Positions 5,181 to 52,511 of a stretch of 64,000 nt of DNA are shown here, piece after piece. Origin of the DNA: Arcticibacter tournemirensis (GTDB lineage: Bacteria > Bacteroidota > Bacteroidia > Sphingobacteriales > Sphingobacteriaceae). Both the position numbers and the translations under genes were made by a program. The notes below the pieces were generated by a model. That model saw only the letters and a list, made by a program, of their open reading frames with translations. It did no database searches and was not told the origin of the DNA. The stretch's first letter is position 1, and each line of letters opens with the position of its first letter. The stretch lies in assembly GCF_006716645.1 (NCBI RefSeq), contig NZ_VFPL01000001.1, forward strand, positions 1,860,001 through 1,924,000, given 5' to 3'.

Positions 5181-5320
5181 GGTTGTGGGTTGCAGGTTGC
5201 AGGTTGCAGGAAAAAGGTGTTGCTCTCAACACACAACTCACAACCCGAAGTAATTCATAACCCATAACCCATAATTCATAACATATAACTCATAACACTC
5301 ACAACCCACAACCCACATCC
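5181..5320 (+). repeat. heptanucleotide-period array between regulator and kinase
   Basis: The left part is GGTTGTG followed by three GGTTGCA units (5181-5208). The right part runs CATAACC, CATAACC, CATAATT, CATAACA, TATAACT, CATAACA (5256-5297), then after a 2-nt slip CACAACC, CACAACC, CACATCC (5300-5320). The right units are near reverse complements of the left ones, and GGGTTGTGGGTTG (5180-5192) pairs perfectly with CAACCCACAACCC (5302-5314). Confidence 0.9.
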
Positions 5321-5322
5321 CC

Positions 5323-6660
5323 ATGCTCAGGATTCAATGGAGAATAATATTCAGGGTACTACTGCTCTTTGTTTTTATAAGTGCTGTGTCGTGGGTAATA
5401 GTTAAGGACTGGTACAGCTATTTGTTTTTACTGATCCCGGTTGTTATTTACCTCATATATGATTTATGCAGATCGCAGCTGCAGGTATATAATGAAATAA
5501 ACGACTTTGTAGAAGCTGTTCATTACAGGGATTTTTCCAGAAACTTCGATATCCGGCATGCCCCTTCAAATCTTAAGCCTTTACGTAAGGGGTTTAATTC
5601 TATTAATTCAATTTTAAAACAGATTTCGCGGGAGAAGGAGACACAGTATCAATATCTTCAGCAAATACTCGAGATGATTGAAACAGGTATCGTGTCGTAT
5701 GAAGAAGGGGAAGGAGAGGTACTGTGGATGAATGAATCGCTTAAGAAGATGTTAAAGTTGCCTTATCTTAAAACCATTCATTCCTTACTTAAAAGAGACG
5801 GTCATTTATACGACGAAATACTCACGTTAGGCCCAGGAGAAAGCAGGATCGTTTCGATCCATCCCGAAGCGGCGTCTTTTAAGATCCTGTTATCGGCCAC
5901 GGCATTTCAGACCGAGGGCAGGAAGTTTAAGCTTATCGCTTTTCAGAATATTAATGAGGCGCTTGATGAAACGGAAGCAAAAGCATGGCAAAAACTTTTG
6001 AGTGTGCTAACTCATGAGATCATGAATTCTGTGGCGCCTATATCATCGCTGGCTGATACACTAAAGACCCGGCTGGAAGGTTCCCTTTCTAATCCCGCCG
6101 AAGATCCATGTACCACGGAGGATATAAGGGTTGGGATTGAAGCGATTAAGCGAAGGAGCGAGGGGCTGCTGAAATTTGCAGAAACATACAGGACCCTCAA
6201 TAAGATAACAACGCTTAATCTTAAGACGATTTATGTCCGCGATTTATTTGAGAATTTGTATCAGTTGATGCAGCCAACTCTCGATAATAAGAATATCGAG
6301 ATGGATATTATATTAAAAGATCCGGGCTTACAGGTGGAGGCTGATACTAACCTGATTGAGCAGGTGCTTATAAATTTGGTTGTAAACGCAATTGACGCTG
6401 TTAAGGAGCGTCCGAATCCGCTGATCTCACTTTCCGGCAGTCTTTCAACCGGAAAGAAAACCACCATTCAGGTAGCCGACAATGGATGCGGTATTTCTCC
6501 GGAGATACAGGAACAGATTTTCGTGCCTTTTTTCAGTACAAAGAAAACCGGCAGCGGAATAGGTTTAAGTTTATGTAAACAAATCATGCTTTTACATAAA
6601 GGAAACATCCAGGTGCAATCGCGGGAAGGGGAGGGAAGCGTATTTCTACTTCAATTTTAA
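5323..6660 (+). CDS. membrane sensor histidine kinase (NtrB/NtrY-like)
   Basis: A 445-residue kinase, probable partner of the NtrC-type regulator just upstream. Two hydrophobic helices (about 8-27 and 30-46) with almost no loop anchor it. A PAS-like region follows (about 110-215), then the dimerisation domain with His231 in LLSVLTHEIMNSVAPI, and a HATPase domain with N box LINLVVNAIDAV, G1 box VADNGCGIS and G2 box GSGIGLSL. There is no periplasmic sensor, so the signal is membrane-borne or cytoplasmic. The start lies directly after a heptad repeat array, leaving little room for its own promoter, so co-transcription with the regulator is likely. Confidence 0.9.
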   Translation: MLRIQWRIIFRVLLLFVFISAVSWVIVKDWYSYLFLLIPVVIYLIYDLCRSQLQVYNEINDFVEAVHYRDFSRNFDIRHAPSNLKPLRKGFNSINSILKQISREKETQYQYLQQILEMIETGIVSYEEGEGEVLWMNESLKKMLKLPYLKTIHSLLKRDGHLYDEILTLGPGESRIVSIHPEAASFKILLSATAFQTEGRKFKLIAFQNINEALDETEAKAWQKLLSVLTHEIMNSVAPISSLADTLKTRLEGSLSNPAEDPCTTEDIRVGIEAIKRRSEGLLKFAETYRTLNKITTLNLKTIYVRDLFENLYQLMQPTLDNKNIEMDIILKDPGLQVEADTNLIEQVLINLVVNAIDAVKERPNPLISLSGSLSTGKKTTIQVADNGCGISPEIQEQIFVPFFSTKKTGSGIGLSLCKQIMLLHKGNIQVQSREGEGSVFLLQF

Positions 6661-6807
6661 AAAAAAAATTATTTTAAGATAATTCTTCTTATATTGGAGC
6701 AAAATTTATACGTCTGTCTGAAAGAAAAGTATATTAGTTCATATATTCTCCTCAAATAATAAATAAGATCATTACTCCATTCCCCCAACTCTCAAACAAT
6801 TACTAGA

Positions 6808-7158
6808 ATGAAAATTTTCGTGGCGAGTCTGCCTTTTAAATTAGAAGAAAACGATATTAGGGAGACTTTTGAAGAATACGGTGAAGTATCTTCAGTAAAA
6901 CTTGTACTTGATAAAGAAACCGGTCGCAAGAAAGGTTTCGGTTTCGTTGAAATGCCAGATGATGAACAGGCAAAGAAAGCAATTGAGGACCTGAACGGCC
7001 TTGAAATTTATGGCAGGGCTATCGCGGTAACTCAGGCTGAAGAAAAAGCAGGCGGCAGTCGCAGAAGCGGCGGCGGCTACGGTAGCAACCGTGGTGGTGG
7101 CTATAACCGTGGCGGCTATAACAAGGGCTACCAGGACAGAGGCTCTGACCAGCACTAA
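6808..7158 (+). CDS. glycine-rich RNA-binding protein (single RRM)
   Basis: A 116-residue protein with one RNA recognition motif (residues 1-78): RNP2 is IFVASL (3-8) and RNP1 is KGFGFVEM (42-49), with the aromatic residues needed for RNA stacking. Residues 82-112 are a Gly/Arg/Tyr-rich tail. This is the common Bacteroidota RRM protein, a likely global RNA binder in phyla that lack Hfq. It is monocistronic: about 150 bp of AT-rich leader precedes it and a hairpin terminator follows. The exact RNA targets are unknown. Confidence 0.93.
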   Translation: MKIFVASLPFKLEENDIRETFEEYGEVSSVKLVLDKETGRKKGFGFVEMPDDEQAKKAIEDLNGLEIYGRAIAVTQAEEKAGGSRRSGGGYGSNRGGGYNRGGYNKGYQDRGSDQH

Positions 7159-7209
7159 ACAGACAACTTAAAGAGGATTCGTTAAGAGCCCTCTGCCTTA
7201 TTATAATGT

Positions 7210-7245
7210 ATTCTTATCCGATTTTTCGGATAAGAATTTCTTTTG
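7210..7245 (+). terminator. rho-independent terminator after the RRM gene
   Basis: ATTCTTATCCG (7210-7220) and CGGATAAGAAT (7227-7237) form a perfect 11-bp stem with a 6-nt loop, followed by the T-rich TTCTTTT. Confidence 0.85.
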
Positions 7246-7417
7246 TTATCCTTATTCTTTTTTCACTTTTTTCGTTGCTTTCGGCCTGAATCTGCCTTTT
7301 TATCTTTTATTAAGGATGTGTAAACTGGAGGATAAATTTTCGTTAAAAATTTGCCTCAGGAGATGTTACAGTTTATTATTATTTCCTTAGCTTAGTAAAA
7401 AGGTTTAAACAGACGAT

Positions 7418-8041
7418 TTGAGAAAAAAAGTTTACAATATTCAGGAATTGTGGGTGCAAATTGTTGAAGAAAGTGATTCTAAAGCTTTTGAAAGCCTTTT
7501 TTATGCTTTAAATCCACGTCTGATTAAGTTTTGTCTTTTTTATGTGCATAAAAAGGAGGTAGCTGAAGAGATTGTATCCGACACCTTTGTGAAGAGCTGG
7601 ATGCAAAGAGGCGAATTATCCCACGTTAAAAACGCGGAAACCTATCTGTTTATCGCAGTCAAAAATCAGGCTTTAAACTATATAAAGCGTTTTTCGAGCA
7701 TTCATATGGTTGCGATCGATGAGAGTACGGTTCAACTGGTTGATGCCTATCGTCCCGACCGGGAAATGGAAAAGAGGGAGCTAATATTCAGGCTGGACCA
7801 GGCTATTGAATCGCTTCCACAGCAATGCCGCATAATTTTTCGCCTCGTTAAAGATGAGGGAATGAAATATAAGGAGGTGGCGGAGATATTGGGGATATCA
7901 CCCCGCACTGTTCACACGCAGTTGTTCAGGGCAATGAAAAAACTGAATGCGGAGATGACCCCCTATGTTAAGTCGGATAATAATCCTCTTTCTATCCATA
8001 TCACCCTGTCTGCTGTCCTTGTTTTTTTGATTTTGTTGTAA
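7418..8041 (+). CDS. ECF RNA polymerase sigma factor
   Basis: A 207-residue ECF sigma factor. Region 2 covers about 19-66 (FESLFYALNPRLIKFCLFYV, then VAEEIVSDTFVKSW) and region 4 about 134-177 (LPQQCRIIFRLVKDEGMKYKE, then ILGISPRTVHTQLFRAMKKL). The only plausible start is TTG 7418, since a stop lies four codons upstream and no in-frame ATG precedes region 2. The protein ends in a strongly hydrophobic tail, ITLSAVLVFLILL, which could be membrane-associated. Its partner is probably the FecR-type anti-sigma factor at 9172, and its target the susC operon, but a minus-strand gene separates sigma from FecR, which is unusual. Confidence 0.9.
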   Translation: MRKKVYNIQELWVQIVEESDSKAFESLFYALNPRLIKFCLFYVHKKEVAEEIVSDTFVKSWMQRGELSHVKNAETYLFIAVKNQALNYIKRFSSIHMVAIDESTVQLVDAYRPDREMEKRELIFRLDQAIESLPQQCRIIFRLVKDEGMKYKEVAEILGISPRTVHTQLFRAMKKLNAEMTPYVKSDNNPLSIHITLSAVLVFLILL

Positions 8042-8070
8042 GTTGTAATAAGGTTCTGCTACATTGCTTT

Positions 8071-8730
8071 TTAATCATTAAACCAAAAAGATCTTTGTAC
8101 ATCTTTAACGTATTTATTCATATGCTTATAACCTTTATTAGTCAATAGAAAAGACACATTTATATGATTGGCCCATTTTATTATACAGAAGCTTTGCCTA
8201 AGTATATATTTTTCCTTATATATTGCTTTCGGATCATTGGAAGGGTATATGATAACATGTTGTGCGTTAAATACCTTTTTAGCTTTCTCTTGAGGCCAGT
8301 ATTTTATTATCTTATCTAGTTCTTCCATTTGTTCGGGCGTGGTATTTTTAAATGGATTTCCTATTCTTAAGCTGAGCCTAAGTCTGTTAAAAGTACTTGA
8401 TGGTATTTCTTCTTCCAACTTGTTTATACCCGATCTTGGTAATACAGCCGGACATTCTATGAATAAAATACATTCTCCATCTTTATGAGTCCATACGGAC
8501 GTCAGAAGATTACCTACTCCTCTTATTAATTCAAGAGGGTCTTCGGGATGCTTAAGGATTATTCGGTCAGGAGACCTTGTGTAATTCTTTGGAACTTTGT
8601 AAGTTAATTCAATAGTTCTTGTCGCTATATCCAATCTTGAATCTTGCTTTTTAATCGTTGTTACTTGATCGGTCTGCCCATAAACTATGGTAGAGAATAA
8701 AATAAAGAATATTTTTAGCGTTCCCTTCAT
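8071..8730 (-). CDS. hypothetical exported protein (219 aa)
   Basis: I do not recognise this protein. It begins MKGTLKIFFILFSTIVYGQ, a clear signal peptide with a Bacteroidota-style cleavage before Gln, so it is probably periplasmic. The rest is a soluble mixed-charge sequence without lipobox, membrane segment or repeat. The gene is convergent with the ECF sigma gene (29 bp between stops) and looks more AT-rich than its neighbours. Its position between a sigma factor and its presumed anti-sigma gene suggests an inserted accessory gene rather than a member of the relay, but a regulatory role cannot be excluded. Confidence 0.7.
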   Translation of the reverse strand: MKGTLKIFFILFSTIVYGQTDQVTTIKKQDSRLDIATRTIELTYKVPKNYTRSPDRIILKHPEDPLELIRGVGNLLTSVWTHKDGECILFIECPAVLPRSGINKLEEEIPSSTFNRLRLSLRIGNPFKNTTPEQMEELDKIIKYWPQEKAKKVFNAQHVIIYPSNDPKAIYKEKYILRQSFCIIKWANHINVSFLLTNKGYKHMNKYVKDVQRSFWFND

Positions 8731-10346: not shown

Positions 10347-10372
10347 GTAAAAAATGACATGAGTTTAATCAC

Positions 10373-16832: not shown

Positions 16833-18698
16833 ATGAAATTGATTTATAAAACTCTCCTGCTTTTTTTTATTCTGATATCTTTTAATGCGTCAGCACAAAA
16901 GAAACACACCTTCGAAATTAAGAATGGCAGCTTTCTTTATGATTCGAAGCCCATTCAGATCCACTCAGGAGAGATGCATTATGCACGTATTCCAAAAGAA
17001 TACTGGCGGCATCGTCTGAAGATGCTGAAGGCTATGGGGCTGAATGCAGTAGCCACTTATGTCTTCTGGAATTATCACAATACCGCTCCGGGAGTATGGG
17101 ATTTTAAAACGGGGAACCGTAACCTGGCAGAGTATATTAAAACTGCTGCTGAAGAGGGTCTTTTGGTAATACTCCGGCCAGGTCCTTACGCCTGCGCTGA
17201 ATGGGAGTTTGGAGGTTACCCCTGGTGGCTTCAGAAGAATCCGGGTCTGGTGATACGTTCGAACAATCAGCCTTTTCTGGATTCGTGCAAGGTTTATATA
17301 ACGAAGCTTGCTGAGCAGGTAAAGAACCTTCAGGTTAGCAATGGAGGTCCGGTGATTATGGTTCAGGCGGAGAATGAGTTCGGCTCCTATGTTTCTCAGC
17401 GTAAAGATATTCCACTTGAAGAGCATAGAAAGTATAACAAGGCGATCTTTGAGATGTTGAAGAATGCCGGGTTTAACGTTCCCTTCTTTACCTCTGACGG
17501 CACCTGGCTGTTTGAGGGTGGAGCGATTCCGGGAGTGTTGCCTACGGCGAATGGTGAGAATAATATTGACAACCTGAAAAAGGCGGTGGATAAGTATCAT
17601 GGAGGTATGGGGCCTTATATGGTGGCAGAGTTCTACCCCGGCTGGCTTGACCATTGGGCTGAGCCGTTTAACCGTGTACCCGCTGCCGATATCGCGAAGC
17701 AGACAGAGAAGTATCTTCAGAACGGGATCAGTTTTAACGTCTATATGGCTCATGGAGGCACTAATTTCGGGTTCACTTCGGGCGCTAATTACAACGAGGA
17801 ACACGACATTCAGCCCGATATTACCAGTTATGATTATGATGCCCCGGTATCTGAAGCAGGCTGGGCAACAGAAAAATATATGGCGATAAGGGACCTGATG
17901 AAGAAGTATGTGAAATACCCTATTCCAGCTGTCCCTGAGAAGATAAAGGTTATCGAAATTCCGGAAATAAAGCTAACAAGAGCTGTTGACGTACTTGATC
18001 TTAAGAAAACAATAACACCAGTAGGTGGTGATAAGCCTCTAACCTTTGAAGAACTCAATCAGGGTTCGGGATATGTATTGTACAGCAGGAGGTTTAATCA
18101 GCCGGTTAATGGTAAGCTGCAGATAAAGGGGCTCAGGGATTATGCCGGCGTTTATGTGAATGGAAAAAGAGTGGGTGAACTGAACCGTGTTCAGAATAAG
18201 TACGAACTCGATATTACTATCCCCTTTAACGGGACTCTCGACATTCTTGTAGAGAACATGGGGCGGATCAATTATGGAGAGCAGATCATTCACAATACCA
18301 AGGGCATTATTTCTGATGTGATGATCAACGATTTTGCGATTACAGGAAGCTGGCAGATGTATAAGATGCCATTCGATGTTCAACCTCAGACAGGTAAACT
18401 TCCGGAGAAAAATATAGAAGGCCGGCCGGTATTATATTCCGGTTCTTTTGAGTTAGCGGAAACAGGAGATACTTTCCTCGATATGAGTAGCTGGGGAAAG
18501 GGAATCGTGTTTGTTAACGGGCATAATCTGGGGCGATTCTGGAATGTTGGTCCTCAGCAAACGCTGTATGTTCCTGGTTGCTGGCTCGCAAAGGGAAAGA
18601 ATGAGATCGTGATTCTTGAACAGCTCAACCAAACAACTCATAGCACTGTCAGGACGGTAAAGCAGCCGGTACTCGACTCTCTAAGTGGCAGTAATTAA
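16833..18698 (+). CDS. GH35 beta-galactosidase, exported
   Basis: A 621-residue exported enzyme; ATG 16833 is preferred because it gives a clean signal peptide (ILISFNASAQ), whereas the ATG at 16785 adds 16 unrelated residues. The GH35 catalytic barrel shows the N-terminal hallmark HSGEMHYARIPKEYWRHRL, GPVIMVQAENEFGS with the acid/base Glu at about 182, and MVAEFYPGWLDHW with the nucleophile Glu at about 266. C-terminal jelly-roll domains include VYVNGKRVGELNR and VFVNGHNLGRFWNVGPQQTLY. It should release terminal beta-galactose, as on N-glycan antennae. It is followed by a fucosidase gene after 15 bp. Confidence 0.94.
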   Translation: MKLIYKTLLLFFILISFNASAQKKHTFEIKNGSFLYDSKPIQIHSGEMHYARIPKEYWRHRLKMLKAMGLNAVATYVFWNYHNTAPGVWDFKTGNRNLAEYIKTAAEEGLLVILRPGPYACAEWEFGGYPWWLQKNPGLVIRSNNQPFLDSCKVYITKLAEQVKNLQVSNGGPVIMVQAENEFGSYVSQRKDIPLEEHRKYNKAIFEMLKNAGFNVPFFTSDGTWLFEGGAIPGVLPTANGENNIDNLKKAVDKYHGGMGPYMVAEFYPGWLDHWAEPFNRVPAADIAKQTEKYLQNGISFNVYMAHGGTNFGFTSGANYNEEHDIQPDITSYDYDAPVSEAGWATEKYMAIRDLMKKYVKYPIPAVPEKIKVIEIPEIKLTRAVDVLDLKKTITPVGGDKPLTFEELNQGSGYVLYSRRFNQPVNGKLQIKGLRDYAGVYVNGKRVGELNRVQNKYELDITIPFNGTLDILVENMGRINYGEQIIHNTKGIISDVMINDFAITGSWQMYKMPFDVQPQTGKLPEKNIEGRPVLYSGSFELAETGDTFLDMSSWGKGIVFVNGHNLGRFWNVGPQQTLYVPGCWLAKGKNEIVILEQLNQTTHSTVRTVKQPVLDSLSGSN

Positions 18699-20941: not shown

Positions 20942-22588
20942 ATGTACAGAAAACTAACAATTTTAATCGTGCTGTGTATTTGTTGTTACAGCGCTACCGC
21001 ACAAATTAATCTTATTCCTAAACCATCGAAGGTAACTATTCCGGCTACCGGCGGGTCTTTGACATTGAATGAGGGTACTCAACTTGTTGTTAAGAGTCCT
21101 GTACTTCAGAATTCTGCTGATTTTTTAAATGACTACCTCATTCAGTTTTATGGTTTTCCTTTAAAGAGCCGTGGGGCTAAAGGAAATGGCAATACTGTTT
21201 ATTTAAGTTTGAACAAAAGCGGGAAGGAAGCTGGAGGTTACACACTTCGTGTGGAGAAAGCTGGAATTTATATTGAAGGAAATGATGCCGAGGGCGTGTT
21301 TTATGGTGTTCAATCCTTAATACAGCTTCTGCCATCTGAGAAAACTTCGGGCTTAAAAATTCCTTATGTTTCAATAAGTGATGCTCCCCGCTTTGCTTAT
21401 CGCGGTATGCATCTGGATGTGGCGCGTCATTTCTTCCCGGTGTCGTTTGTTAAAAAATATATTGATTACCTGGCTCTTCATAAGATGAACTATTTCCACT
21501 GGCATTTAACAGATGACCAGGGGTGGAGGATTGAAATAAAGAAATATCCGAAGCTTACGCAGGTGGGGGGATACAGGAACGGTACCGTTATAGGACATTT
21601 TCCCGGAACCGGTAACGATAACAAAAGATACGGGGGATATTATACTCAGGAGGAAGTTAAAGATGTGGTTCGTTATGCTTCGAAGAGATACATTACTGTG
21701 GTCCCCGAAATTGAAATGCCCGGGCATGCTTCAGCTGCTATAGCAGCGTACCCCGAACTGAGCTGTTTTCCTGAGGAGTCTACAAAGTTTCCTCCAAAGA
21801 CAGTATGGTCGGGCGATACTACAGGTAAGCAGGTTCAGCAGACCTGGGGGGTATTTGAGGATGTGTTCGCTCCGACAGAAAAAACGTTCTCTTTCCTTCA
21901 GGACGTGATTGATGAAGTGATTCCGCTCTTTCCTTCAAAATATATTCATATTGGGGGGGATGAGTGTCCGAAGGATAACTGGAAACGTTCTGCATTTTGC
22001 CAGCAGCTGATGAAAGAGAAAGGACTCAAGGATGAGCATGAGCTTCAGAGTTACTTTATCCAGCGCATGGAGAAGTATATTAACGGCAAGGGAAAGACGA
22101 TCATTGGCTGGGATGAGATACTGGAAGGCGGCTTAGCTCCGAATGCCATAGTGATGAGCTGGAGAGGTGAAGAAGGAGGTATAGCAGCGGCTAAGCAGAA
22201 TCATAAGGTGATCATGACGCCAGGCAGTCACGTGTACTTTGATCACTCGCAGGTAAAGCCCGATGATTCTTTAACGATAGGGGGCTATACCACTGTAAGA
22301 AAAGTATATTCGTATGAGCCGGTTCCGAAGGAACTTAATGAAGCACAAGGCAAGTATGTGATGGGCGCTCAGGCCAATGTGTGGACTGAGTATATTAAAT
22401 ATCCGTCAAAAGTACAATACCAGATATTCCCAAGAATCAGCGCATTGAGCGAGGTGCTGTGGAGCCCAAAGCAATCCAGGGACTGGACTGATTTTGAGCC
22501 AAGATTGCGTGAGCAGATTAAGAGATACGACTTGTGGAAGGTGCATTACGGGACAATTGACCATGGACAAGGGACAATTGACAATTGA
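20942..22588 (+). CDS. GH20 beta-N-acetylhexosaminidase, exported
   Basis: A 548-residue exported enzyme. A GH20b-type N-terminal domain (about 25-140) precedes the catalytic barrel (about 150-520) with YRGMHLDVARHF, NYFHWHLTDDQGWRIEIK, PEIEMPGHASAAIAAYP and the Asp340-Glu341 catalytic pair in YIHIGGDECPKDNW. It should remove terminal beta-GlcNAc or GalNAc. The last 12 residues (GTIDHGQGTIDN) are encoded by a heptad repeat array that carries the stop codon, so the native C-terminus has probably been replaced or extended. A TACGTTTG box at 20878 may belong to its promoter. Confidence 0.94.
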   Translation: MYRKLTILIVLCICCYSATAQINLIPKPSKVTIPATGGSLTLNEGTQLVVKSPVLQNSADFLNDYLIQFYGFPLKSRGAKGNGNTVYLSLNKSGKEAGGYTLRVEKAGIYIEGNDAEGVFYGVQSLIQLLPSEKTSGLKIPYVSISDAPRFAYRGMHLDVARHFFPVSFVKKYIDYLALHKMNYFHWHLTDDQGWRIEIKKYPKLTQVGGYRNGTVIGHFPGTGNDNKRYGGYYTQEEVKDVVRYASKRYITVVPEIEMPGHASAAIAAYPELSCFPEESTKFPPKTVWSGDTTGKQVQQTWGVFEDVFAPTEKTFSFLQDVIDEVIPLFPSKYIHIGGDECPKDNWKRSAFCQQLMKEKGLKDEHELQSYFIQRMEKYINGKGKTIIGWDEILEGGLAPNAIVMSWRGEEGGIAAAKQNHKVIMTPGSHVYFDHSQVKPDDSLTIGGYTTVRKVYSYEPVPKELNEAQGKYVMGAQANVWTEYIKYPSKVQYQIFPRISALSEVLWSPKQSRDWTDFEPRLREQIKRYDLWKVHYGTIDHGQGTIDN

Positions 22589-22620
22589 CAATGGACAGTT
22601 GACAATGGGCAATTGATGCG
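22551..22620 (+). repeat. heptanucleotide array overlapping the GH20 3' end
   Basis: Ten consecutive 7-nt units in one phase: GGACAAT, TGACCAT, GGACAAG, GGACAAT, TGACAAT, TGACAAT, GGACAGT, TGACAAT, GGGCAAT, then a degenerate TGATGCG. The GH20 stop codon is the TGA that opens the sixth unit. Confidence 0.9.
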
Positions 22621-22965: not shown

Positions 22966-24021
22966 ATGAAAACCGTAGTAAAACAGGTAGCAGGCATTGA
23001 TGTAGCACAAAAAGAATTAGTTGTATCACTAGGAAAAATGGATCAGCAATGGACCCCTAAGATCGTAGGACATAAGACCTTCACTAATAACAGTAAGGGT
23101 TTTAATGAATTGCGTGCCTGGGTCAGTAAACAGTGTGAAGATCAGGTTGAAGTACGTTATGTTATGGAATCCACCGGAGTGTATCATGAAGCTTTGGCTT
23201 ATTATCTTTCAGGGGAAGGATGTGCAGTGAGTATTGTCCTGCCCAATAAAATCAGTAATTATTTCAGGACCCTGAAAGTAAGGACCATTACAGACAAAAG
23301 CGCCAGCGAAGCCATCTGTCTGTTTGGCCTTGAACGTAAGCTGGATGATTGGAAGCGGCCTGCACCGCTGTATAAAACACTCAGGCAACTTACCCGTGAA
23401 AGGGACCAGTTGCAGCAGGAGCTGAACCAGTTGCGAAACCAAAAACATGCAGAACTGGCTGAAGCAGAGCCCAATGAAGGCACGCTTATCCGGCTTGACA
23501 AACGGATTAAACTATTAAAGGACCAGGCCGCAGAGATCTGGGAGGAAATCAGAGAGATGCTTGCCAAAAATCAAAAAGTGAGTGCAACTGTAAAACAGCT
23601 CACCTCTATTCCAGGTGTAGGTGCCCTTACGGCAGTGACCGTACTGGCAGAAACCAATGGCTTTGATCTGATACGCAATCAGAAGCAACTTACCGCCTAC
23701 GCAGGACTGGACGTCAAAGAAAAGCAGTCGGGAACTTCCGTAAGGGGGAAAGCGCAGATATCTAAAAGAGGAAACCGGCACTTGAGAAAGGCGATGCACT
23801 TCCCTGCGCTTACAGCCATCAGGCACGATGTGCACTTTAAAGCAGTGTATCTCAGGATAGTGGAGAAACAAGGAATCAAGATGAAAGCTGCCGTGGCGGT
23901 ACAAAGAAAAATACTGGCTTTAATGTACACCTTATACCGTAGTGGCAAAGAATACGACAAAGATTATCTTCAAAAAATACAGATAGAAAAGAATGAGGCG
24001 GAACGACGACAAACAGCTTAA
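22966..24021 (+). CDS. IS110-family transposase (DEDD recombinase)
   Basis: A 351-residue transposase. The N-terminal RuvC-like DEDD domain includes AGIDVAQKELVVSL (first Asp) and YVMESTGVYHEAL (Glu), then TITDKSASEAI where the third and fourth acidic positions should lie. A coiled-coil segment follows (about 140-190, RERDQLQQELNQLRNQK). The C-terminal Transposase_20 domain has LTSIPGVGALTAVTVLAE and AYAGLDVKEKQSGTSVRGKAQISKRGNRHLRKAMH, which carries the serine proposed to form the covalent DNA link. Full length for the family with no frameshift, so it could be active. Confidence 0.95.
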   Translation: MKTVVKQVAGIDVAQKELVVSLGKMDQQWTPKIVGHKTFTNNSKGFNELRAWVSKQCEDQVEVRYVMESTGVYHEALAYYLSGEGCAVSIVLPNKISNYFRTLKVRTITDKSASEAICLFGLERKLDDWKRPAPLYKTLRQLTRERDQLQQELNQLRNQKHAELAEAEPNEGTLIRLDKRIKLLKDQAAEIWEEIREMLAKNQKVSATVKQLTSIPGVGALTAVTVLAETNGFDLIRNQKQLTAYAGLDVKEKQSGTSVRGKAQISKRGNRHLRKAMHFPALTAIRHDVHFKAVYLRIVEKQGIKMKAAVAVQRKILALMYTLYRSGKEYDKDYLQKIQIEKNEAERRQTA

Positions 24022-27836: not shown

Positions 27837-28855
27837 AATATAATCGCCGGAAGTTTTTAGGGATGTCGGCTCTTGGCCTTCCCATTTTATCGTCAGCAAA
27901 TTTATTTGCTGGCTTAGGTAAGAGCGGAAGTCTGGGTGCTGAAGGACCGCTTGTTATCTCGACCTGGGATTTTGGAGTTGAGGCCAATGTGGCGGCCTGG
28001 AAGATTTTAAAGAACGGAGGCAGGGCGCTTGATGCTGTTGAGCAGGGGGTGTGGGTTCCGGAGGGTGACCCCAAGAACCAGACGGTGGGCATGGGGGGAT
28101 TCCCGGACCGGGATGGAAAGGTGACCCTGGATGCCTGTATTATGGATGAGAATGGTAATTGCGGCAGTGTGGCAGCTCTCGAACATATCGTTCATCCGAT
28201 ATCTGTTGCGAGGAAGGTGATGGAGAAAACTCCGCACGTGATGCTTGTGGGTGAAGGCGCCCTACAGTTCGCGCTCCAGCAGGGATTTAAGAAAGAGAAT
28301 CTGCTTACTCCTGAATCTGAAAAGGCCTGGAAAGAATGGTTAAAAACTTCGCAGTATAAGCCTGTTATAAATATCGAGAATAAATCGTTTGCTCCCAAGC
28401 GTTTGCCGGGAAACCAGTATAATCATGATACCATCGGGATGCTCGCTTTAGATGCCAAAGGCAATTTATCGGGTGCGTGTACGACCAGTGGTATGGCATT
28501 TAAACTCCACGGCCGTGTTGGTGATTCTCCGATTATCGGGGCCGGATTATATGTTGATAATGAAGTGGGCGGAGCTACCTCGACGGGAGTTGGGGAAGAA
28601 GTGATCCGAAATGTAGGAAGCTTTCTGGTGGTGGAACTGATGCGACAGGGATATAGTCCGGAGGAAGCCTGCAAGGAGGCGGTAATGAGGATTATCAAAA
28701 AGAAGCCCGAAACTGCGAAGGAAATTCAGGTTGGTTTTCTGGCATTGAATAAAAAGGGCGAATACGGGGCTTATGCCATCCAGAAGGGGTTTAGCTATGC
28801 TGTTTGTAATGATAAGGATCAGAAACTGGTGGTGAAGGGGAAGAGTTATTATTGA
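27833..28855 (+). CDS. N4-(beta-N-acetylglucosaminyl)-L-asparaginase (glycosylasparaginase)
   Basis: A 340-residue Ntn-hydrolase precursor. The N-terminus has a twin-arginine signal (YNRRKFLGMSALGLPIL), so it is folded before export. The chain is self-cleaved before Thr200 in NHDTIGMLALDAKG, which becomes the nucleophile of the beta subunit; GRVGDSPIIGAGLYVDNEVGGATSTG is the substrate-binding stretch of the family. The enzyme cleaves the GlcNAc-Asn bond, the last step in N-glycoprotein breakdown. Its translational coupling to the hydrolase upstream and the surrounding glycosidases strongly support an N-glycan role for the locus. The stop codon touches a heptad repeat array. Confidence 0.94.
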   Translation: MKYNRRKFLGMSALGLPILSSANLFAGLGKSGSLGAEGPLVISTWDFGVEANVAAWKILKNGGRALDAVEQGVWVPEGDPKNQTVGMGGFPDRDGKVTLDACIMDENGNCGSVAALEHIVHPISVARKVMEKTPHVMLVGEGALQFALQQGFKKENLLTPESEKAWKEWLKTSQYKPVINIENKSFAPKRLPGNQYNHDTIGMLALDAKGNLSGACTTSGMAFKLHGRVGDSPIIGAGLYVDNEVGGATSTGVGEEVIRNVGSFLVVELMRQGYSPEEACKEAVMRIIKKKPETAKEIQVGFLALNKKGEYGAYAIQKGFSYAVCNDKDQKLVVKGKSYY

Positions 28856-28964
28856 GTTGCATGTTGTGAGTTGCATGTTGTGGGTTGAAGGTTGCGAAGA
28901 TTGAGAGGTAAGAATCAAGAGGTAAGAATCAGGTACGTGTTGCGGGTTGTAGGTGGTGAGTTCC
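28854..28964 (+). repeat. heptanucleotide array between glycosylasparaginase and cutC
   Basis: Sixteen units of mostly 7 nt: GAGTTGC, ATGTTGT, GAGTTGC, ATGTTGT, GGGTTGA, AGGTTGC, GAAGATT, GAGAGGT, AAGAATC, AAGAGGT, AAGAATC, one 6-nt unit, then GTGTTGC, GGGTTGT, AGGTGGT, GAGTTCC. It combines the GTTGC unit type of the array at 5181 with the AATC type of the array at 52372. Confidence 0.9.
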
Positions 28965-41282: not shown

Positions 41283-43580
41283 ATGCATATATCAGGACAA
41301 ATTTCAGGAACTTTGAGAAGCTACTTTCTTAGTTTGGCTTTTAGCCTTGTAATATTGAGTGCTTTTTCTCAGCAGAAGCAAAAAAAACATAAGTTGACGC
41401 TTAATAAACCAGAGAACCTCACAAGGTATGTTGACCCGTATATCGGTACCGGCTTTCACGGCCATGTATTCCTTGGCGCCAATGTGCCGTTCGGACTGGT
41501 TCAACTGGGTCCGGTCAACTTATCACAAGGCTGGGATTGGTGCTCTGGTTATCATTATTCTGATTCGACTATTGTTGGTTTCTCCCATACTCATTTGAGT
41601 GGAACAGGGATAGGCGACCTGGGTGATATAGCCCTGATGCCCGTGACAGGAGATGTACGCTTCTCCAAAGGAAATCTTAAAGATCCAAAAAGCGGATTTG
41701 TCTCTCTGTTTTCTCATAAGGAGGAGAAAGCAAGACCGGGATATTACTCTGTGAAATTAAAACGGTATGATATCAAAGCTGAACTTACTGCCACTGCGCG
41801 CGTTGGTTTTCATCGTTATACCTTTCCGAAATCGGAGAATTCGGGTATTGTTATTGACCTGAGACAGGGAATCGGTTGGGATCTGGCTAAAGAGACTTAT
41901 TTGGAGAAGGTGAATGATACCACACTTGCAGGCTATCGTTTTTCTTCGGGTTGGGCTAAAGATCAGCGGATATGGTTTAGAATGGTGTTTTCCAAGCCGA
42001 TGACCTCTTTCGTTGTTTCAGACAGCACCGCAGAAAAGAGTGGCAGCGCCTTGAAAGGACGATTTGTATTCGGAAAAGCTGGTTTTACAACGAAGGCAGG
42101 AGAAGTCATTCAGGTAAAGGTGGCACTGTCTCCTGTGAGCATTGAAAATGCGGGAGCTAATATGAAAGCGGAACTTCCGGGCTGGAACTTTGATAATACA
42201 GTTGTGGCTGCCGATGCTGCATGGAATAAAGAGCTGTCGAGAGCGCTGGTTCACTCTGCTGATCCTGCAAGGATGCGTACTTTCTATACGGCTCTCTACC
42301 ATACTATGATTGCTCCTTCTTATTTTAATGATCATAATAAAGATTATCTCGGAACGGATAAGAAGGTGTATAGAAATGCTTCTTTTACAAACCTTACTAC
42401 TTTTTCGTTGTGGGATACTTACCGCGCTGCTCACCCGCTATTTACTATTCTGCAGCCAGATAAGGTCAACGATATGATCAATACGATGCTGGCCATCTAT
42501 AAGCAGCAAGGTAAGCTGCCTGTATGGCATCTGATGGGGAATGAGACAGATTGTATGGTTGGTAATCCTGGGATTATAGTAGTGGCAGATGCTGTGATGA
42601 AAGACTTTAAAGGCTTCGACACAAGCCTGGCTTTTGAAGCAATGAAAAATTCGGCAATGCTCGATGAAAGAGGTCTGAAGTATGTAAAGAAATACGGGTA
42701 TATCCCGGCTGACAGTACTGTCGAGTCGGTGGCAATGGGACTTGAGTATGCCATTGCGGATTGGGGAATTGGTGCAGTAGCGAAGAAACTGGGTAAACAA
42801 GAGGACTTCCGATACTTTAACAAGAGAGGCCTTTATTACAAAAATTATTTCGATAAGGAGGTTGGTTTTATGCGTGGTAAGATTTCTGACAATGAATGGC
42901 GTACTCCTTTTAATCCTTTTGAATCTATCCATGGCAAGAATGATTATACCGAAGGTAACGCATGGCAGTACACCTGGCTTGCTCCTCAGGATCCGAAGGG
43001 ATTAATTGAACTTTTGGGAGGTGAGGATCGGTTTACAAAGAAACTGGATTCGCTTTTTGTTATTCAGGGAAATCTGGGAGAGCATGCTTCGCCCGATATT
43101 AGCGGCCTTATCGGCCAATATGCTCATGGAAATGAGCCAAGTCACCATATTTCATATCTATATAATTTTGTTGGTCAGCCCTGGAAAACAGCTGATAAAG
43201 TGAGGCATATTCTTGATCACTTGTATACTGATAAGTTTGATGGTTTGTGCGGAAATGAAGATGTCGGCCAGATGTCGGCCTGGTATGTACTTTCTGCGCT
43301 GGGCTTCTACCAGGTAAATCCGGCGAACGGGATATATGTGATAGGTAGTCCGGTTATTGACGACGCAACTCTTCAGGTGGGGTCAGGTAAGACCTTCAGG
43401 GTTATAACTAAAAACAACTCTGCAGCCAACAAGTATGTGCAGCGCATCGTGTTGAATGGTAAAGAATATACTAAGTCGTATATTCATTACAAAGATATTG
43501 TAGCCGGGGGAACCATGACTATCGAGATGGGAAGCAAACCTTCTGCCTGGGGTACGAAGCCAGCGGAAAGACCTTTTTGA
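41283..43580 (+). CDS. GH92 alpha-mannosidase, exported
   Basis: A 765-residue exported enzyme (signal to about FSQ30). GH92 hallmarks are RYVDPYIGTGFHGHVFLGANVPFGLVQLGP near the N-terminus, GFSHTHLSGTGIGDLGDI, FSLWDTYRAAHPLFTI, PVWHLMGNETDCMVG, EGNAWQYTWLAPQD and GNEDVGQMSAWYVLSALGFY. GH92 enzymes are calcium-dependent exo-alpha-mannosidases (often alpha-1,2 or 1,3) acting on high-mannose N-glycans. Its stop codon overlaps the first unit of a heptad array, and the GH2 gene follows. Confidence 0.95.
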   Translation: MHISGQISGTLRSYFLSLAFSLVILSAFSQQKQKKHKLTLNKPENLTRYVDPYIGTGFHGHVFLGANVPFGLVQLGPVNLSQGWDWCSGYHYSDSTIVGFSHTHLSGTGIGDLGDIALMPVTGDVRFSKGNLKDPKSGFVSLFSHKEEKARPGYYSVKLKRYDIKAELTATARVGFHRYTFPKSENSGIVIDLRQGIGWDLAKETYLEKVNDTTLAGYRFSSGWAKDQRIWFRMVFSKPMTSFVVSDSTAEKSGSALKGRFVFGKAGFTTKAGEVIQVKVALSPVSIENAGANMKAELPGWNFDNTVVAADAAWNKELSRALVHSADPARMRTFYTALYHTMIAPSYFNDHNKDYLGTDKKVYRNASFTNLTTFSLWDTYRAAHPLFTILQPDKVNDMINTMLAIYKQQGKLPVWHLMGNETDCMVGNPGIIVVADAVMKDFKGFDTSLAFEAMKNSAMLDERGLKYVKKYGYIPADSTVESVAMGLEYAIADWGIGAVAKKLGKQEDFRYFNKRGLYYKNYFDKEVGFMRGKISDNEWRTPFNPFESIHGKNDYTEGNAWQYTWLAPQDPKGLIELLGGEDRFTKKLDSLFVIQGNLGEHASPDISGLIGQYAHGNEPSHHISYLYNFVGQPWKTADKVRHILDHLYTDKFDGLCGNEDVGQMSAWYVLSALGFYQVNPANGIYVIGSPVIDDATLQVGSGKTFRVITKNNSAANKYVQRIVLNGKEYTKSYIHYKDIVAGGTMTIEMGSKPSAWGTKPAERPF

Positions 43581-43620
43581 GTTGAAGGTTAAAAGTTAAG
43601 AGTTGAAAGTTGCGGAGTGA
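43579..43620 (+). repeat. heptanucleotide array after GH92
   Basis: Six units in phase: GAGTTGA, AGGTTAA, AAGTTAA, GAGTTGA, AAGTTGC, GGAGTGA. The GH92 stop codon (43578-43580) is shared with the first unit. Confidence 0.85.
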
Positions 43621-46313: not shown

Positions 46314-46317
46314 TAAA

Positions 46318-48681
46318 ATGAAGAAGGTTTTATTGTTTGCCCTGGTTGTATTAAGTACTGGCTTTTGTGTTAAAGGACAAAAGAAACCGCTGTACAAAGA
46401 TCCTGCAGCTCCCGTTGAAAGCAGAATAAACGATCTGATCAGCAGGATGACTCTGGAAGAGAAGGTGGGACAGATATCGGTGCTTTTAGGATGGGAAATG
46501 TATGATAAGCAGGGTGAAAAAGTAGGGGTAAGCGCACAGTTCAAACAGGCACTTAAGGAGCAACAAACAGGAATGCTCTGGGCTACGTTAAGAGCTGATC
46601 CCTGGACGAAAAAGACCTTAAAAACGGGGCTGAACCCTGTGCTGGCAGCCAAAGCAACAAACGCCTTACAGAAATATGCCGTTGAAAATACACGGCTTGG
46701 CATTCCTTTATTGCTGGCCGAAGAATGTCCGCATGGTCATATGGCGATCGGGACCACTGTTTTTCCAACCTCTATCGGGCAAAGCAGCACCTGGAATCCC
46801 GCGCTTATCGAGCGTATGGCGTCGGCTATTGCTTCAGAAGCACGCTCTCAAGGCGCACATATTGGTTACGGACCAGTACTTGATCTTGCAAGAGAACCCA
46901 GGTGGTCGAGAGTGGAAGAGACATACGGCGAAGATCCGGTTCTGAACGGTGCGATGGGAATTGCTATGGTTAAGGGTTTTCAGGGAGGAAGCCTGAAGTC
47001 GGGTAAGAATGTGGTATCGACGCTTAAACATTTTGCTGCTTATGGTGTACCCGAAGGAGGGCATAACGGCGGAAGTATAAGTGTCGGCCTGAGAGAGCTG
47101 CATCAATCGTACTTACCTCCCTTTAAAGATGCCGTCAAAGCAGGCGCCTTGTCTGTAATGACTGCATATAATTCGATAGACGGCATTCCTTGCTCTTCCA
47201 ACCCTGTTTTACTGAAAGATATATTGCGGAGGGATTGGGGCTTTAATGGATTTGTAGTTTCGGATCTCGGAAGCATAAGCGGCTTACTGACTAATCACCA
47301 GGTAGCTGCAAATGCTGAGGATGCTGCCACTCTTGCAATCAATGCCGGTGTCGATGCAGATCTAAGCGGGTATGGTTATGGGAAGGCGTTGATAGAGGCA
47401 GTGAAGGCAGGAAAAGTAAGCTCTGCTGTATTAGACACTGCTGTAGCACGCGTGCTGAGAATTAAGTTTTCCATGGGCTTGTTTGAGAATCCTTATGTTG
47501 ATCCTGTAAAAGCAGGTAAAGAAGTTCGCAATAAAGATAATATTCAGTTGGCCCGCCGTGTTGCACAGGAATCGCTGGTCCTTCTAAAGAACGTGAATAA
47601 TGTTCTTCCGTTGAAAAAAACGTTGAAGAGCATTGCTGTTATCGGTCCGAATGCCGACAATATATATAACCAGTTAGGTGATTATACAGCACCACAGGCC
47701 GAAGAGGCTGTCGTCACTGTGCTGGAAGGCATCAGAATGAAAGTGGAGAGTACCACAAGTGTTGACTATGTAAAGGGTTGCGCAATAAGAGACACTTCCG
47801 CTGATGAGATCGAACGAGCAGTAGATGCGGCAAAAAATGCTGATGTGGCTGTAGTAGTACTTGGCGGTTCGAGCGCCCGGGACTTTAAAACCGAATATCA
47901 AAGCACCGGCGCCGCTACTGCGAAAGCTTCAGATGTAGCAGTGAGCGATATGGAAAGCGGTGAAGGATTCGATCGTGCCAGCCTGGACCTAATGGGTAAA
48001 CAGCTGGAGCTTTTAAAGGAGGTGGTTAAGACTGGAACGCCCGTAGTGGTTGTCCTTATAAAAGGGCGTCCTCTGAACCTCAACTGGATATCGGAGCATG
48101 TTCCTGTTATTGTTGACGCATGGTACCCTGGTCAGGAAGGAGGAAATGCAATAGCCGATGTTCTTTTCGGCGATTATAATCCTGCCGGTCGCCTGCCGGT
48201 TTCGGTACCGCGGTCGGTTGGGCAGCTACCGGTTTATTATAACCAAAAGAAGCCGGTACCTCACGACTATGTTGAAGTTAAGTCATCTCCGTTGTATTGT
48301 TTTGGTTATGGACTGAGTTACTCGAAGTTTGAGTACAGTGATCTGAGTATCTCAAAAGCGGATGATAGTAATGCTCCTCTTATCACCGTTCAATTTAAAA
48401 TTAAGAATATTAGCTCCATACCAGGTGATGAGGTTGCTCAACTTTACGTCCGGGATAATGTTAGCTCTACCGTTTCTCCGGTGAAGCAGCTTAAGAAGTT
48501 TGAAAGGATCCATCTTCGTCCGGCAGAGCAGAAGACTGTTAAGTTTCAGCTAAAAGATTCAGAGCTGATGTTGCTAAATGCAGAAATGAAATGGTTGCTT
48601 GAGCCCGGGAGCTTTACCGTAATGGCGGGAGCCTCTTCAGAAGATATCAGGATCAATGGAAAATTGACAGTGGAAAATTGA
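46318..48681 (+). CDS. GH3 beta-glycosidase, exported
   Basis: A 787-residue exported enzyme. GH3 barrel motifs are INDLISRMTLEEKVGQISVL, GPVLDLAREPRWSRVEETYGEDP, STLKHFAAYG and NGFVVSDLGSISGL with the nucleophile Asp316. The alpha/beta sandwich (about 400-640) and C-terminal FnIII-like domain (about 690-785) follow. Specificity (beta-glucosidase, xylosidase or hexosaminidase) cannot be read from sequence alone. The last codons (VEN plus stop) lie inside a heptad array, as in GH20. Only 4 bp separate it from the GH2 gene. Confidence 0.92.
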   Translation: MKKVLLFALVVLSTGFCVKGQKKPLYKDPAAPVESRINDLISRMTLEEKVGQISVLLGWEMYDKQGEKVGVSAQFKQALKEQQTGMLWATLRADPWTKKTLKTGLNPVLAAKATNALQKYAVENTRLGIPLLLAEECPHGHMAIGTTVFPTSIGQSSTWNPALIERMASAIASEARSQGAHIGYGPVLDLAREPRWSRVEETYGEDPVLNGAMGIAMVKGFQGGSLKSGKNVVSTLKHFAAYGVPEGGHNGGSISVGLRELHQSYLPPFKDAVKAGALSVMTAYNSIDGIPCSSNPVLLKDILRRDWGFNGFVVSDLGSISGLLTNHQVAANAEDAATLAINAGVDADLSGYGYGKALIEAVKAGKVSSAVLDTAVARVLRIKFSMGLFENPYVDPVKAGKEVRNKDNIQLARRVAQESLVLLKNVNNVLPLKKTLKSIAVIGPNADNIYNQLGDYTAPQAEEAVVTVLEGIRMKVESTTSVDYVKGCAIRDTSADEIERAVDAAKNADVAVVVLGGSSARDFKTEYQSTGAATAKASDVAVSDMESGEGFDRASLDLMGKQLELLKEVVKTGTPVVVVLIKGRPLNLNWISEHVPVIVDAWYPGQEGGNAIADVLFGDYNPAGRLPVSVPRSVGQLPVYYNQKKPVPHDYVEVKSSPLYCFGYGLSYSKFEYSDLSISKADDSNAPLITVQFKIKNISSIPGDEVAQLYVRDNVSSTVSPVKQLKKFERIHLRPAEQKTVKFQLKDSELMLLNAEMKWLLEPGSFTVMAGASSEDIRINGKLTVEN

Positions 48682-48740
48682 CAATTGACGGAGGACTGTT
48701 AAAATTGACAATTGACAAGGGACAATTGACAAGCGACGGT
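48658..48740 (+). repeat. heptanucleotide array overlapping the GH3 3' end
   Basis: Units: GGAAAAT, TGACAGT, GGAAAAT, TGACAAT, TGACGGA, GGACTGT, a 6-nt TAAAAT, TGACAAT, TGACAAG, GGACAAT, TGACAAG, CGACGGT. The GH3 stop TGA opens the fourth unit. The unit type is the same as in the GH20 array 26 kb away. Confidence 0.9.
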
Positions 48741-48817
48741 TCACGTTTTTTATTACCTTTACGAAACGATCTGTCATGCAGTTATCCTATCAAAGTGGAT
48801 GCTGTAAAAGGTAATAT

Positions 48818-50890: not shown

Positions 50891-50994
50891 CTACACTGCT
50901 GGATCTGGATTCAAAAAGATGATATATTTTATTATAATTCATCTATAAAATAAGTTTATCTTATTTTAGCTAAATTCTTTGGCATTCGAGTCCT

Positions 50995-51002
50995 TATCTT
51001 TG
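50995..51002 (+). promoter_or_regulatory. TATCTTTG -7 box before the exonuclease gene
   Basis: The box matches TAnnTTTG but lies only 4 bp before the ATG, and the nearest TTTG (50978) is spaced too short for the consensus. If used, the mRNA would be nearly leaderless. Confidence 0.35.
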
Positions 51003-51006
51003 TATT

Positions 51007-52371
51007 ATGTACGCTATAGTTGATATCGAAACAACAGGAGGTCATGCCTCTGCAAATGGCATAACGGATATTGCTATTTTGCTGCATGACGGAAAAAGCG
51101 TAGTACATCAATATGAAACATTAATAAATCCAGGCATTTCAATACCAGCTTATATTAGTGCCCTTACCGGTATAAGCGATGAGATGGTTAAAAATGCTCC
51201 ATCATTTCGTGAAGTAGCGGCCGATATCTATCACCTGATCGGGGATAAGGTCTTTGTTGCACATAACGTTAATTTTGACTATTCCTTTCTAAAATATCAT
51301 CTTTCTTTAGCTGGGTTTAACCTTCAATGTAAAAAACTATGTACCGTTCGCCTGGGTCGTAAGATATTCCCTGGTTTTAGCTCTTATAGCTTAGGCAAGC
51401 TTTGCAGCCGGCTTAATATCGTTCTGGAAAACAGGCACAGGGCCGGAGGGGACGCTCTGGCTACAGCAAAGTTGTTTTCAATGCTATTAGAGAAAGACGA
51501 AGACGGACACATATTGCAATTGCTGGGTCGGAGCTCAGCTGAACAGCGGCTACCGCCGTATTTGCAGAAAGAGGACATCGACAAGCTTCCTTTGTCACCG
51601 GGTGTTTACTATTTCAAGAACCAAAAAGGGGATGTTATTTACGTCGGAAAGGCAATAAATCTCAGAAAAAGAGTACTTTCTCACTTTACCGGAAATAATC
51701 CCGGGCGGCAACGCCAGGAGTTTCTGAAGAATATTCATTCCGTTAGTTTCACTGAATGCGGGACAGAACTTATGGCTTTTATTCTCGAGGCGGTAGAAAT
51801 TAAGCGTATATGGCCGTCTAACAACCGGGCTATGAAACGTTTTGAACAATCCTTTGGACTTTATTTATATGAGGATCAACGAGGATATCTCAGGCTGATA
51901 ATCGATAAAAAGAAAAAAGGCTCTTGTCCCTTATTTTCATTTAACAGTTTACTGGAAGGAAGGAACATTCTTATTTCGCTAACGAAGAAGTTTGACCTTT
52001 GTCCTAAGCTTTGTTTCATACAACGGAATAATGAATGCTGCAATGGTATTTTGTCTAATTACTGTCGCGGTGCATGTAACGGAGACGAAGGTAGTGCAGA
52101 ATATAACGCCAGGGTACGACAGGCTTTGGAAGACCTTAAGACCGCTTTGCCTTCGTTTATGTTGTTAGATAAAGGCCGTACCGTAGAAGAGCAGAGCATA
52201 ATACTTATGGAACAGGGGAATGTTTACGGAATGGGGTATCTTCCCCGCAATTATACCATTAGCGACATAAATTCCGTTAAAACGTTATTACATCCGCATC
52301 CTTCGAATGATTATATACGAAATATGGTATTGAACCATGCATCCCGGTTCCCGGAAAAGGTGAGACTTTAG
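51007..52371 (+). CDS. DnaQ-type exonuclease / GIY-YIG nuclease fusion
   Basis: A 454-residue two-nuclease protein. The N-terminal DEDDh exonuclease (about 1-165) has YAIVDIETTGG (Asp6, Glu8), VAHNVNFDYSFLKYHL and HRAGGDALATAKLF. The middle GIY-YIG domain (about 195-275) has LPLSPGVYYFKNQKGDVIYVGKAINLRKRV and resembles UvrC/Cho N-termini. A C-terminal region of about 180 residues contains several cysteines (CPKLCFIQRNNECCNG, YCRGACNGDEG), possibly a metal site. This fusion is known in Bacteroidota and probably acts in DNA repair. A heptad array follows the stop by one base. Confidence 0.92.
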   Translation: MYAIVDIETTGGHASANGITDIAILLHDGKSVVHQYETLINPGISIPAYISALTGISDEMVKNAPSFREVAADIYHLIGDKVFVAHNVNFDYSFLKYHLSLAGFNLQCKKLCTVRLGRKIFPGFSSYSLGKLCSRLNIVLENRHRAGGDALATAKLFSMLLEKDEDGHILQLLGRSSAEQRLPPYLQKEDIDKLPLSPGVYYFKNQKGDVIYVGKAINLRKRVLSHFTGNNPGRQRQEFLKNIHSVSFTECGTELMAFILEAVEIKRIWPSNNRAMKRFEQSFGLYLYEDQRGYLRLIIDKKKKGSCPLFSFNSLLEGRNILISLTKKFDLCPKLCFIQRNNECCNGILSNYCRGACNGDEGSAEYNARVRQALEDLKTALPSFMLLDKGRTVEEQSIILMEQGNVYGMGYLPRNYTISDINSVKTLLHPHPSNDYIRNMVLNHASRFPEKVRL

Positions 52372-52511
52372 AATCAAGTATCTAGTATCAGGAATCAAGA
52401 TTCGAGTATCAGGATTCAAGAATCAGGAATCAGGATTTGAGTATGAAGAATCAAGAATCAAGAACGAGGGAGCTGGTATCAGGAATCAAGATTTAAGAAG
52501 CGGGAATGGGG
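52372..52511 (+). repeat. twenty-unit heptanucleotide array (best preserved)
   Basis: 140 bp divide exactly into twenty 7-nt units without any slip. Consensus is AATCAAG/TATCAGG; units in order include AATCAAG, TATCTAG, TATCAGG, AATCAAG, ATTCGAG, TATCAGG, ATTCAAG, AATCAGG, AATCAGG, ATTTGAG, TATGAAG, AATCAAG, AATCAAG, with degenerate units towards the end. It begins right after the stop codon at 52371. Confidence 0.93.

Follow-up and report, generated by a model that had tools for sequence, protein, structure and literature searches.

We analysed a 64,000-nt stretch of the Arcticibacter tournemirensis genome (contig NZ_VFPL01000001.1, positions 1,860,001–1,924,000), called the window below, in which tandem arrays of 7-nt units (heptamers) occupy six intervals at the edges of genes. 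The original prediction had proposed that these arrays keep a strict 7-nt period, lie in gaps between two plus-strand genes and begin at upstream stop codons. The arrays and their adjoining genes are as follows, with positions counted from the first letter of the window.

5180..5210, plus strand: G-rich heptamer array of GGTTGCA units, 8 nt past the stop of a sigma-54 response-regulator gene (3816–5171)
5223..5321, plus strand: opposed C-rich heptamer array (CTCACAACC) of CATAACC units, reaching the start of a histidine-kinase gene at 5323
22548..22616, plus strand: heptamer array of GGACAAT / TTGACAA units, spanning the stop of a GH20 gene (20942–22588)
28853..28964, plus strand: heptamer array of mixed GAGTTGC and AGAATCA/GAGGTAA units, with the stop of an asparaginase gene (27863–28855) inside its first unit
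43579..43620, plus strand: short, weak heptamer array of AGTTGAA units at the stop of a GH92 gene (41283–43580)
48654..48748, plus strand: heptamer array of TTGACAA / GGACAAT units, spanning the stop of a GH3 gene (46318–48681)
52371..52511, plus strand: heptamer array of AGAATCA / AGTATCA units with 21- and 35-nt higher-order repeats, running from the stop of a DEDD-exonuclease gene (51007–52371)

The periodicity of each interval was evaluated by a period-7 segment score and compared with 500 dinucleotide shuffles per interval, none of which reached the observed score in any of the six. The best segments scored 33.0 in 5181–5320, 29.6 in 22551–22620, 15.3 in 28854–28964, 14.0 in 43579–43620, 22.6 in 48658–48740 and 42.5 in 52372–52511, with shuffle maxima of 8.6–12.2, and the competing periods of 5, 6, 8, 9, 10 and 11 nt scored 9.7 at most. 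Tandem Repeats Finder reported units of period 7, 14, 21 or 35 at the same six places. The 7-nt arrays were thereby confirmed as real and their period as strict. The weakest intervals were 43579–43620 and 28854–28964, the former falling under the threshold of the genome-wide array set and hence outside it, and the interval 5181–5320 was resolved into two opposed arrays, G-rich at 5180–5210 and C-rich at 5223–5321.

The genome comprises 5,655,817 bases in two contigs, and the genome-wide scan of periods was run on a sample of 1,664,000 bases, consisting of 80 evenly spread 20-kb stretches and the window. By a simple codon-model gene caller, which makes gene starts especially approximate, 85.5% of this sample was coding. 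At a threshold of 16, we found 76 segments with a period of 7, of which 74 were intergenic, and its multiples were also in excess (61 segments with 57 intergenic for period 14, and 51 with 43 intergenic for period 21). Besides periods 11 and 22, whose 14 and 7 segments were all intergenic, every other period from 4 to 25 yielded 0–9 segments. Both the excess at period 7 and the predicted intergenic location were thus borne out beyond the window, with period 11 as an additional signal. Merging gave 94 arrays, 89 of them in 73 of the 1070 gaps, and we extrapolated ∼320 arrays for the genome.

The array-bearing gaps included 25 of >> orientation, 30 of <<, 13 of >< and 5 of <>, so that the placement between two plus-strand genes held for the window but not for the sample, where gaps of all four orientations carried arrays. 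Per kb of gap, there were 0.374 (>>), 0.581 (<<), 0.55 (><) and 0.138 (<>) arrays, that is, arrays were as common between convergent genes as between co-directional genes and rarer between divergent genes. Among the 66 co-directional arrays, 40 began within 10 nt of the upstream stop or crossed it, compared with 22.5 expected for random positions in the same gaps with an overlap of 45 nt allowed, and 17 ended within 10 nt of the downstream start, compared with 23.4 expected on the same basis. The excess of arrays beginning at stops was therefore moderate; since gaps are short, the stop-codon rule is partly an outcome of gap length, although the rule itself is real, and the stop was one case of a wider rule that concerns gap edges.

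This wider rule was seen in the strand polarity of the arrays, which the original prediction had not included. The words of the G-rich strand were GGTTGAA, GGTTATG, TTGACAA with GGACAAT, AGTATCA, TTGGCTA and GAAAGCT. When each array was cut at every skew change, in either direction, and the pieces were assigned to the nearer gap edge, the G-rich strand ran outward from the flanking gene in 98 of 134 pieces and inward in 22, with 14 neutral. The ratio of outward to inward pieces was 19:1 in convergent gaps, 73:18 in co-directional gaps and a weak 6:3 in divergent gaps. With a cut that split arrays at G-to-C changes only, co-directional gaps had 42 sense-G and 4 sense-C pieces on the stop side, and 29 sense-C and 4 sense-G pieces on the start side, where the outward-G rule thus holds too. 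The arm order obtained with this cut (31/31) is biased by the rule itself, and the polarity rests on the two-way cut and on separately detected neighbouring arrays of one gap, which followed the order GC nine times, 0C four times, G0 twice, GG once and CG never. Over the 20 nt that follow the stop, the skew was +0.56 in 49 array gaps versus +0.02 in 278 non-array gaps, and 51 gaps of array-poor congeners (+0.06) had no polarity of the array-gap kind.

The same polarity was found in relatives, with outward to inward ratios of 5:0 in the congener G002, 12:1 in G061, 6:0 in G124 and 15:4 in 80 named loci; word matches had guided the choice of the stretches from G061 and of two of the seven from G002, but not the choice of those from G124. 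It was weak in 19 loci around one junction, in which 12 of 20 pieces were outward and 7 inward. Replication-strand bias of the arrays, judged by eye, had little outcome.

Unit identity within arrays fell with distance, as local duplication predicts, being 0.614, 0.593, 0.546, 0.492, 0.477, 0.442, 0.433 and 0.411 at successive lags from 7 to 56 nt, and 0.25–0.30 at lags that were not multiples of 7. The words were also shared between loci: 57 of the 89 own arrays matched an array of another gap better than did all 20 column-permuted versions of themselves, and by this measure own-genome words were matched by 4 of 5 arrays in G002, 4 of 12 in G061, 3 of 5 in G124 and 1 of 14 in distant named loci. 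Period and polarity were the same across at least four coexisting but dissimilar word families (GTTG, GACA, ATCA and GCTGA); single-linkage clustering of the array words gained little.

Among close relatives, the arrays were patchy and turned over fast. The pattern GTTGN3GTTGN3GTTG had 295 matches in the own genome and 1088 in the congener G002, but 0 in G005, 1 in G001 and 2 each in G003 and G004, and at least one match in 102 of 151 genomes of the family; a reversed-pattern control was uninformative as the pattern is the same when read backwards. In 280 kb of G001, G003, G004 and G005, we detected no period-7 segment, where ∼15 were expected from the density in the own genome. The gap after the DEDD-exonuclease gene was 205 nt with its array in the window and 8–24 nt in four congeners, where a same-strand gene comes next. 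In the GH20 gene, the array at 22551 begins 38 nt within the reading frame and encodes the last residues and the stop codon; this protein end differs in three congeners, and two congeners have a short unit-like stretch there (GGAGCAATTGAT) without any array. The asparaginase array starts exactly at the stop, whose position is conserved in two congeners that are 83–86% identical.

In a second genus, one gap of G061 carried opposed arrays of the AGTATCA type, and 18 other species had no array of that kind in this gap. At one junction, G154, G119 and G167 had 165, 447 and 288 nt, respectively, between the same anchors, with flanks of 93.9–94.6% identity and different units. The length differences of 282 and 123 nt are not multiples of 7, with other changes intervening, and the GTATTGA-type units on the left and the CCTCAGA/CAACAGA-type units on the right of this junction are mutually non-complementary. 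Elsewhere, an array that G154 and G119 share was absent in G107 and had gained a 15-nt palindromic insertion in one of its two carriers.

Several side observations were made in the window and in related loci. One window protein had its best named relatives in Pedobacter, Daejeonella and Mucilaginibacter species, with 58–63% identity. Two copies of an IS110-family element in the sample, at 22966–24021 of the window and at 16911–18362 of locus L162, were 99.9% identical, and both adjoin heptamer arrays. A small palindrome (CCCGATAnnTATCGGG) had been inserted between units of a heptamer array in one member of a close species pair (L364 of G119 compared with L363 of G154, near 2350–2400) and elsewhere in related genomes (L265 at 7632, L268 at 3921, and L153 at 1048 and 3079), but nowhere in the own-genome sample. 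In Mucilaginibacter-type loci (L084, L085, L086, L087 and L090, upstream of 4000), 8-nt arrays flank an intrinsic terminator, taking the same part as the heptamers, and their words differ between species at the same junction. Larger hairpin insertions, seen by eye at the same Mucilaginibacter junction in L078 and L079 (3670–4000; GTCATTGCGAGCG... and GTCATGCTGAGC...), are probably similar to miniature inverted-repeat transposable elements. Some Pedobacter species have heptamer-periodic stretches within the reading frame of a gene labelled by eye as bioA-like (L101 6644–7945, L106 6794–8095, L111 7500–8801 and L115 7179–8480); all four proteins have 433 residues, and the divergence may reflect an older decaying array or change without change of length. 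Finally, the period-11 segments represent a separate class of intergenic arrays (14 of 14), some with opposed arms and mostly 80–250 nt before a gene. Their loci include L160 7502–7688, L167 101–287, L038 11853–12050, L188 3840–3953, L171 6818–6920, L176 1634–1836 and L006 1183–1231, among others, and their neighbours include mraZ (L188), a gene for an RF-1-type release factor (L160) and two DUF6266 genes (L006 and L167).

Arrays of this class are already known. TAACTGA heptamer arrays, some of them mixed with other heptamers, have been published for Beggiatoaceae, Cyanobacteria and five Bacteroidetes (PMC4679880), so that a Bacteroidota counterpart, none of which was known to the original prediction, had already been described. 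Those arrays are likewise heptameric, mostly intergenic, patchy and mixed, and close Cyanothece strains differ in them by indels that mostly come in 7-nt steps; in Beggiatoaceae, however, the arrays lie just before start codons, whereas the present arrays lie mostly at stops. No tandem TAACTGA pair (TAACTGATAACTGA) was found on either strand of the 1.66-Mb sample. Most closely, the present arrays resemble the GGGAATC / GGGGA(C/T)T (GGGNATC) heptamer arrays of Xanthomonas and Nostoc, for which the authors favoured G-quadruplexes and cited a polymerase-footprint idea (PMC4692102). Those arrays also have a 7-nt unit, are intergenic, few between divergent genes and variable in length, occupy the coding strand <50 bp past stops and the non-coding strand near the start of the next gene, and form convergent (inverted) pairs, with 70 and 75 cases in two Xanthomonas genomes, as paired arrays occur here. 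They differ in having one G-quadruplex-forming word with four units preferred, where we found several families without the motif and lengths up to ∼360 nt, and in keeping the same context in 83% of cases between two species, where we found near-absence in four congeners. The STRR (short tandemly repeated repetitive) sequences of Calothrix and other cyanobacteria, known to us via PMC4692102, are likewise tandem heptanucleotides at many loci, and the present arrays share with the STRR class an exact 7-nt unit, many intergenic loci and words common to loci. Satellites derived from heptamers also rank with the most abundant satellite families in bacteria, Chloroflexus being one example of a carrier (PMC6749651). 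Searches of an open-licence library turned up no description of the present word families, of this polarity in arrays that lack G-quadruplexes or of such an on/off pattern across congeners.

We favour, with a probability of roughly 55%, the interpretation that these tandem heptanucleotides belong to the STRR / GGGNATC class of arrays and are mostly non-functional, fast-evolving filler grown by a strand-asymmetric, slippage-like process. The arrays would grow by tandem duplication in steps of 7 nt (also 14, 21 and 35 nt) in unconstrained intergenic DNA, and growth would halt at whatever selection holds, a stop codon on one side and a promoter on the other. Growth of this kind would explain the placement, the decay of unit similarity, the higher-order periods and the turnover. 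The generator would be strand-asymmetric and would lay new G-rich sequence on the strand running 5' to 3' outward from the flanking gene, making the G-rich strand the extended one; because the G-rich strand is outward on either side of a gap, opposed arrays often face each other. As a limited word set is common to loci and related genera, words must also spread between loci, which may occur by copying or through a sequence preference of the generator.

Several points weigh against this interpretation. Plain local slippage predicts a distinct word for each locus, and the words are in fact shared, while the choice of 7 nt (8 nt in Mucilaginibacter-type loci) and the polarity are left unexplained by simple growth; the shared words, the period of 7 and the outward-G polarity therefore require either a strand-asymmetric generator or some form of copying. 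The opposite arm of a two-sided gap was the rank-1 partner in 4 of 31 cases against 0.54 expected, indicating that some arms are tied beyond their family, a link that the plainest form of this interpretation would not produce. Turnover, seen here between species, appears slower in Xanthomonas, in which two species share the gene context of 83% of repeats (PMC4692102).

Alternatively, the opposed arrays could be transcript-end elements, forming a long imperfect RNA hairpin that protects or defines mRNA 3' ends, with the 7-nt register permitting slipped pairing. Consistent with this, 60 array gaps of 60–320 nt folded with a mean z of −3.06 compared with −1.26 for 100 non-array gaps, two-sided gaps folding better (−3.97, n = 26) than one-sided gaps (−2.37, n = 34), and z was below −2 in 18/26 two-sided, 16/34 one-sided and 28/100 non-array gaps. 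The window region 5172–5322, with both opposed arrays, had a z of −4.18, and polarity was cleanest in convergent gaps (19 to 1). On the other hand, both signs were present in only 31 of the 73 gaps, with only G-rich pieces in 26 and only C-rich pieces in 12. In the 31 two-sided gaps, the opposite arm was the best match of 57 candidates in 4 and within the top three in 10, but ranked tenth or worse in 14, with polarity still holding; splitting gaps at the midpoint added little (within-gap arm pairing better in 38 of 73, Wilcoxon p 0.02). Start-side pieces were just as strongly polarised (29 to 4), and their transcription together with the other arm is not required. An intrinsic terminator was seen by eye between the two arrays of Mucilaginibacter loci L084–L087, and a terminator preceded the G-rich array in three gaps of the own genome according to a strict scanner, which scored terminators in 6 of 68 array gaps but overlooked at least two that can be recognised by eye. 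Moreover, congeners manage without the arrays, and the window had no Rfam match. Because partner arms often rank poorly, non-complementary words occur and terminators intervene, pairing is not the cause of the polarity, which holds whether or not the two sides of a gap are complementary. A general role in mRNA 3'-end structure, raised in the original prediction, is doubtful given that arrays occur on the start side and in divergent gaps, sometimes past terminators, and that unlike words keep the polarity, and we regard this explanation as unlikely.

The original prediction had also suggested recombination scars and a protein-binding phased array as candidate roles. Selected, phased binding sites for a nucleoid, gyrase-like or RNA-binding protein, as proposed for TAACTGA arrays, would account for the fixed period, the placement at gene edges and words common within the genome and to related genera. 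Such sites are opposed by the uniform period and polarity of at least four dissimilar word families, by the near-absence in four congeners and by the complete turnover between species 94% identical, and we consider them rather unlikely. Candidate causes were compared by their presence in 8 array-rich and 12 array-poor genomes, a grouping based on one word pattern only and imperfect, since 80 kb of the array-rich G020 (151 matches) contained no segment of period 7 at threshold 15 and 80 kb of the array-poor G011 contained one. REP (repetitive extragenic palindromic) sequences and BIMEs (bacterial interspersed mosaic elements), associated with RAYT (REP-associated tyrosine transposase) proteins, are dispersed, intergenic and arranged in inverted pairs. 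A dispersed mobile or RAYT/REP-like palindromic element would fit the many loci, shared words and inverted arms, as well as the arrays beside both sampled IS110-family copies, but is improbable: the unit here is not palindromic, inter-arm loops were not shared in the gaps read, and constant ends were not seen. Y1/RAYT was rejected as the cause, with a Y1 transposase in 2/8 array-rich and 4/12 array-poor genomes and no PF01797 match in the own genome (G000). In fused telomeres, the G-rich strand runs 3' outward on both sides, and this is the polarity of the arrays. Telomere-like end healing, in which a templated or slippage-prone polymerase would extend both 3' ends of a break within a gap by G-rich heptamers before rejoining leaves the arrays head-to-head, would also find Ku available in 19 of the 20 genomes. 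However, neither Ku (7/8 array-rich, 12/12 array-poor) nor reverse transcriptase (4/8, 8/12) separated the groups as a cause, the array-carrying G124 lacks Ku, and non-array DNA, sometimes with a terminator, remains between the arms, which makes this explanation very improbable. The SbcD hairpin nuclease, above the cut-off in 6/8 array-rich and 8/12 array-poor genomes, was rejected as a cause in the same way. We give least credence, close to none, to G-quadruplex elements as proposed for GGGNATC arrays: the G-rich strand polarity agrees with PMC4692102, but a G3+N1-7 x4 motif was present on either strand in 0 of 89 arrays, and the polarity common to both kinds of array thus needs another cause.

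A broader and speculative possibility, which we think has a low probability, is that a single widespread and uncharacterised DNA process gives rise to the heptamer arrays found in Bacteroidota, Xanthomonas and Nostoc alike. Such a process would add 7-nt words (8-nt in some lineages) to 3' ends that point away from genes, starting with the G-rich strand, akin to telomeric repeat addition; it could be switched on or off between congeners, and word content would drift while period and polarity stay.

For the question of why heptamers pile up in some bacterial genomes, an outward-G polarity without the motif argues against G-quadruplexes and recasts the problem as one of a strand-asymmetric generator. 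Congeners with ∼0 versus ∼1000 matches, together with 94%-identical species whose arrays have been rewritten, provide a natural comparison for mapping the cause. The arrays also add array-coded residues to the ends of genes, and contigs that end at arrays (for example C12 of G002) suggest that arrays break short-read assemblies. In sum, with some close relatives having almost none or quite different ones, the arrays look like fast-growing, little-studied DNA filler and not like a conserved switch.

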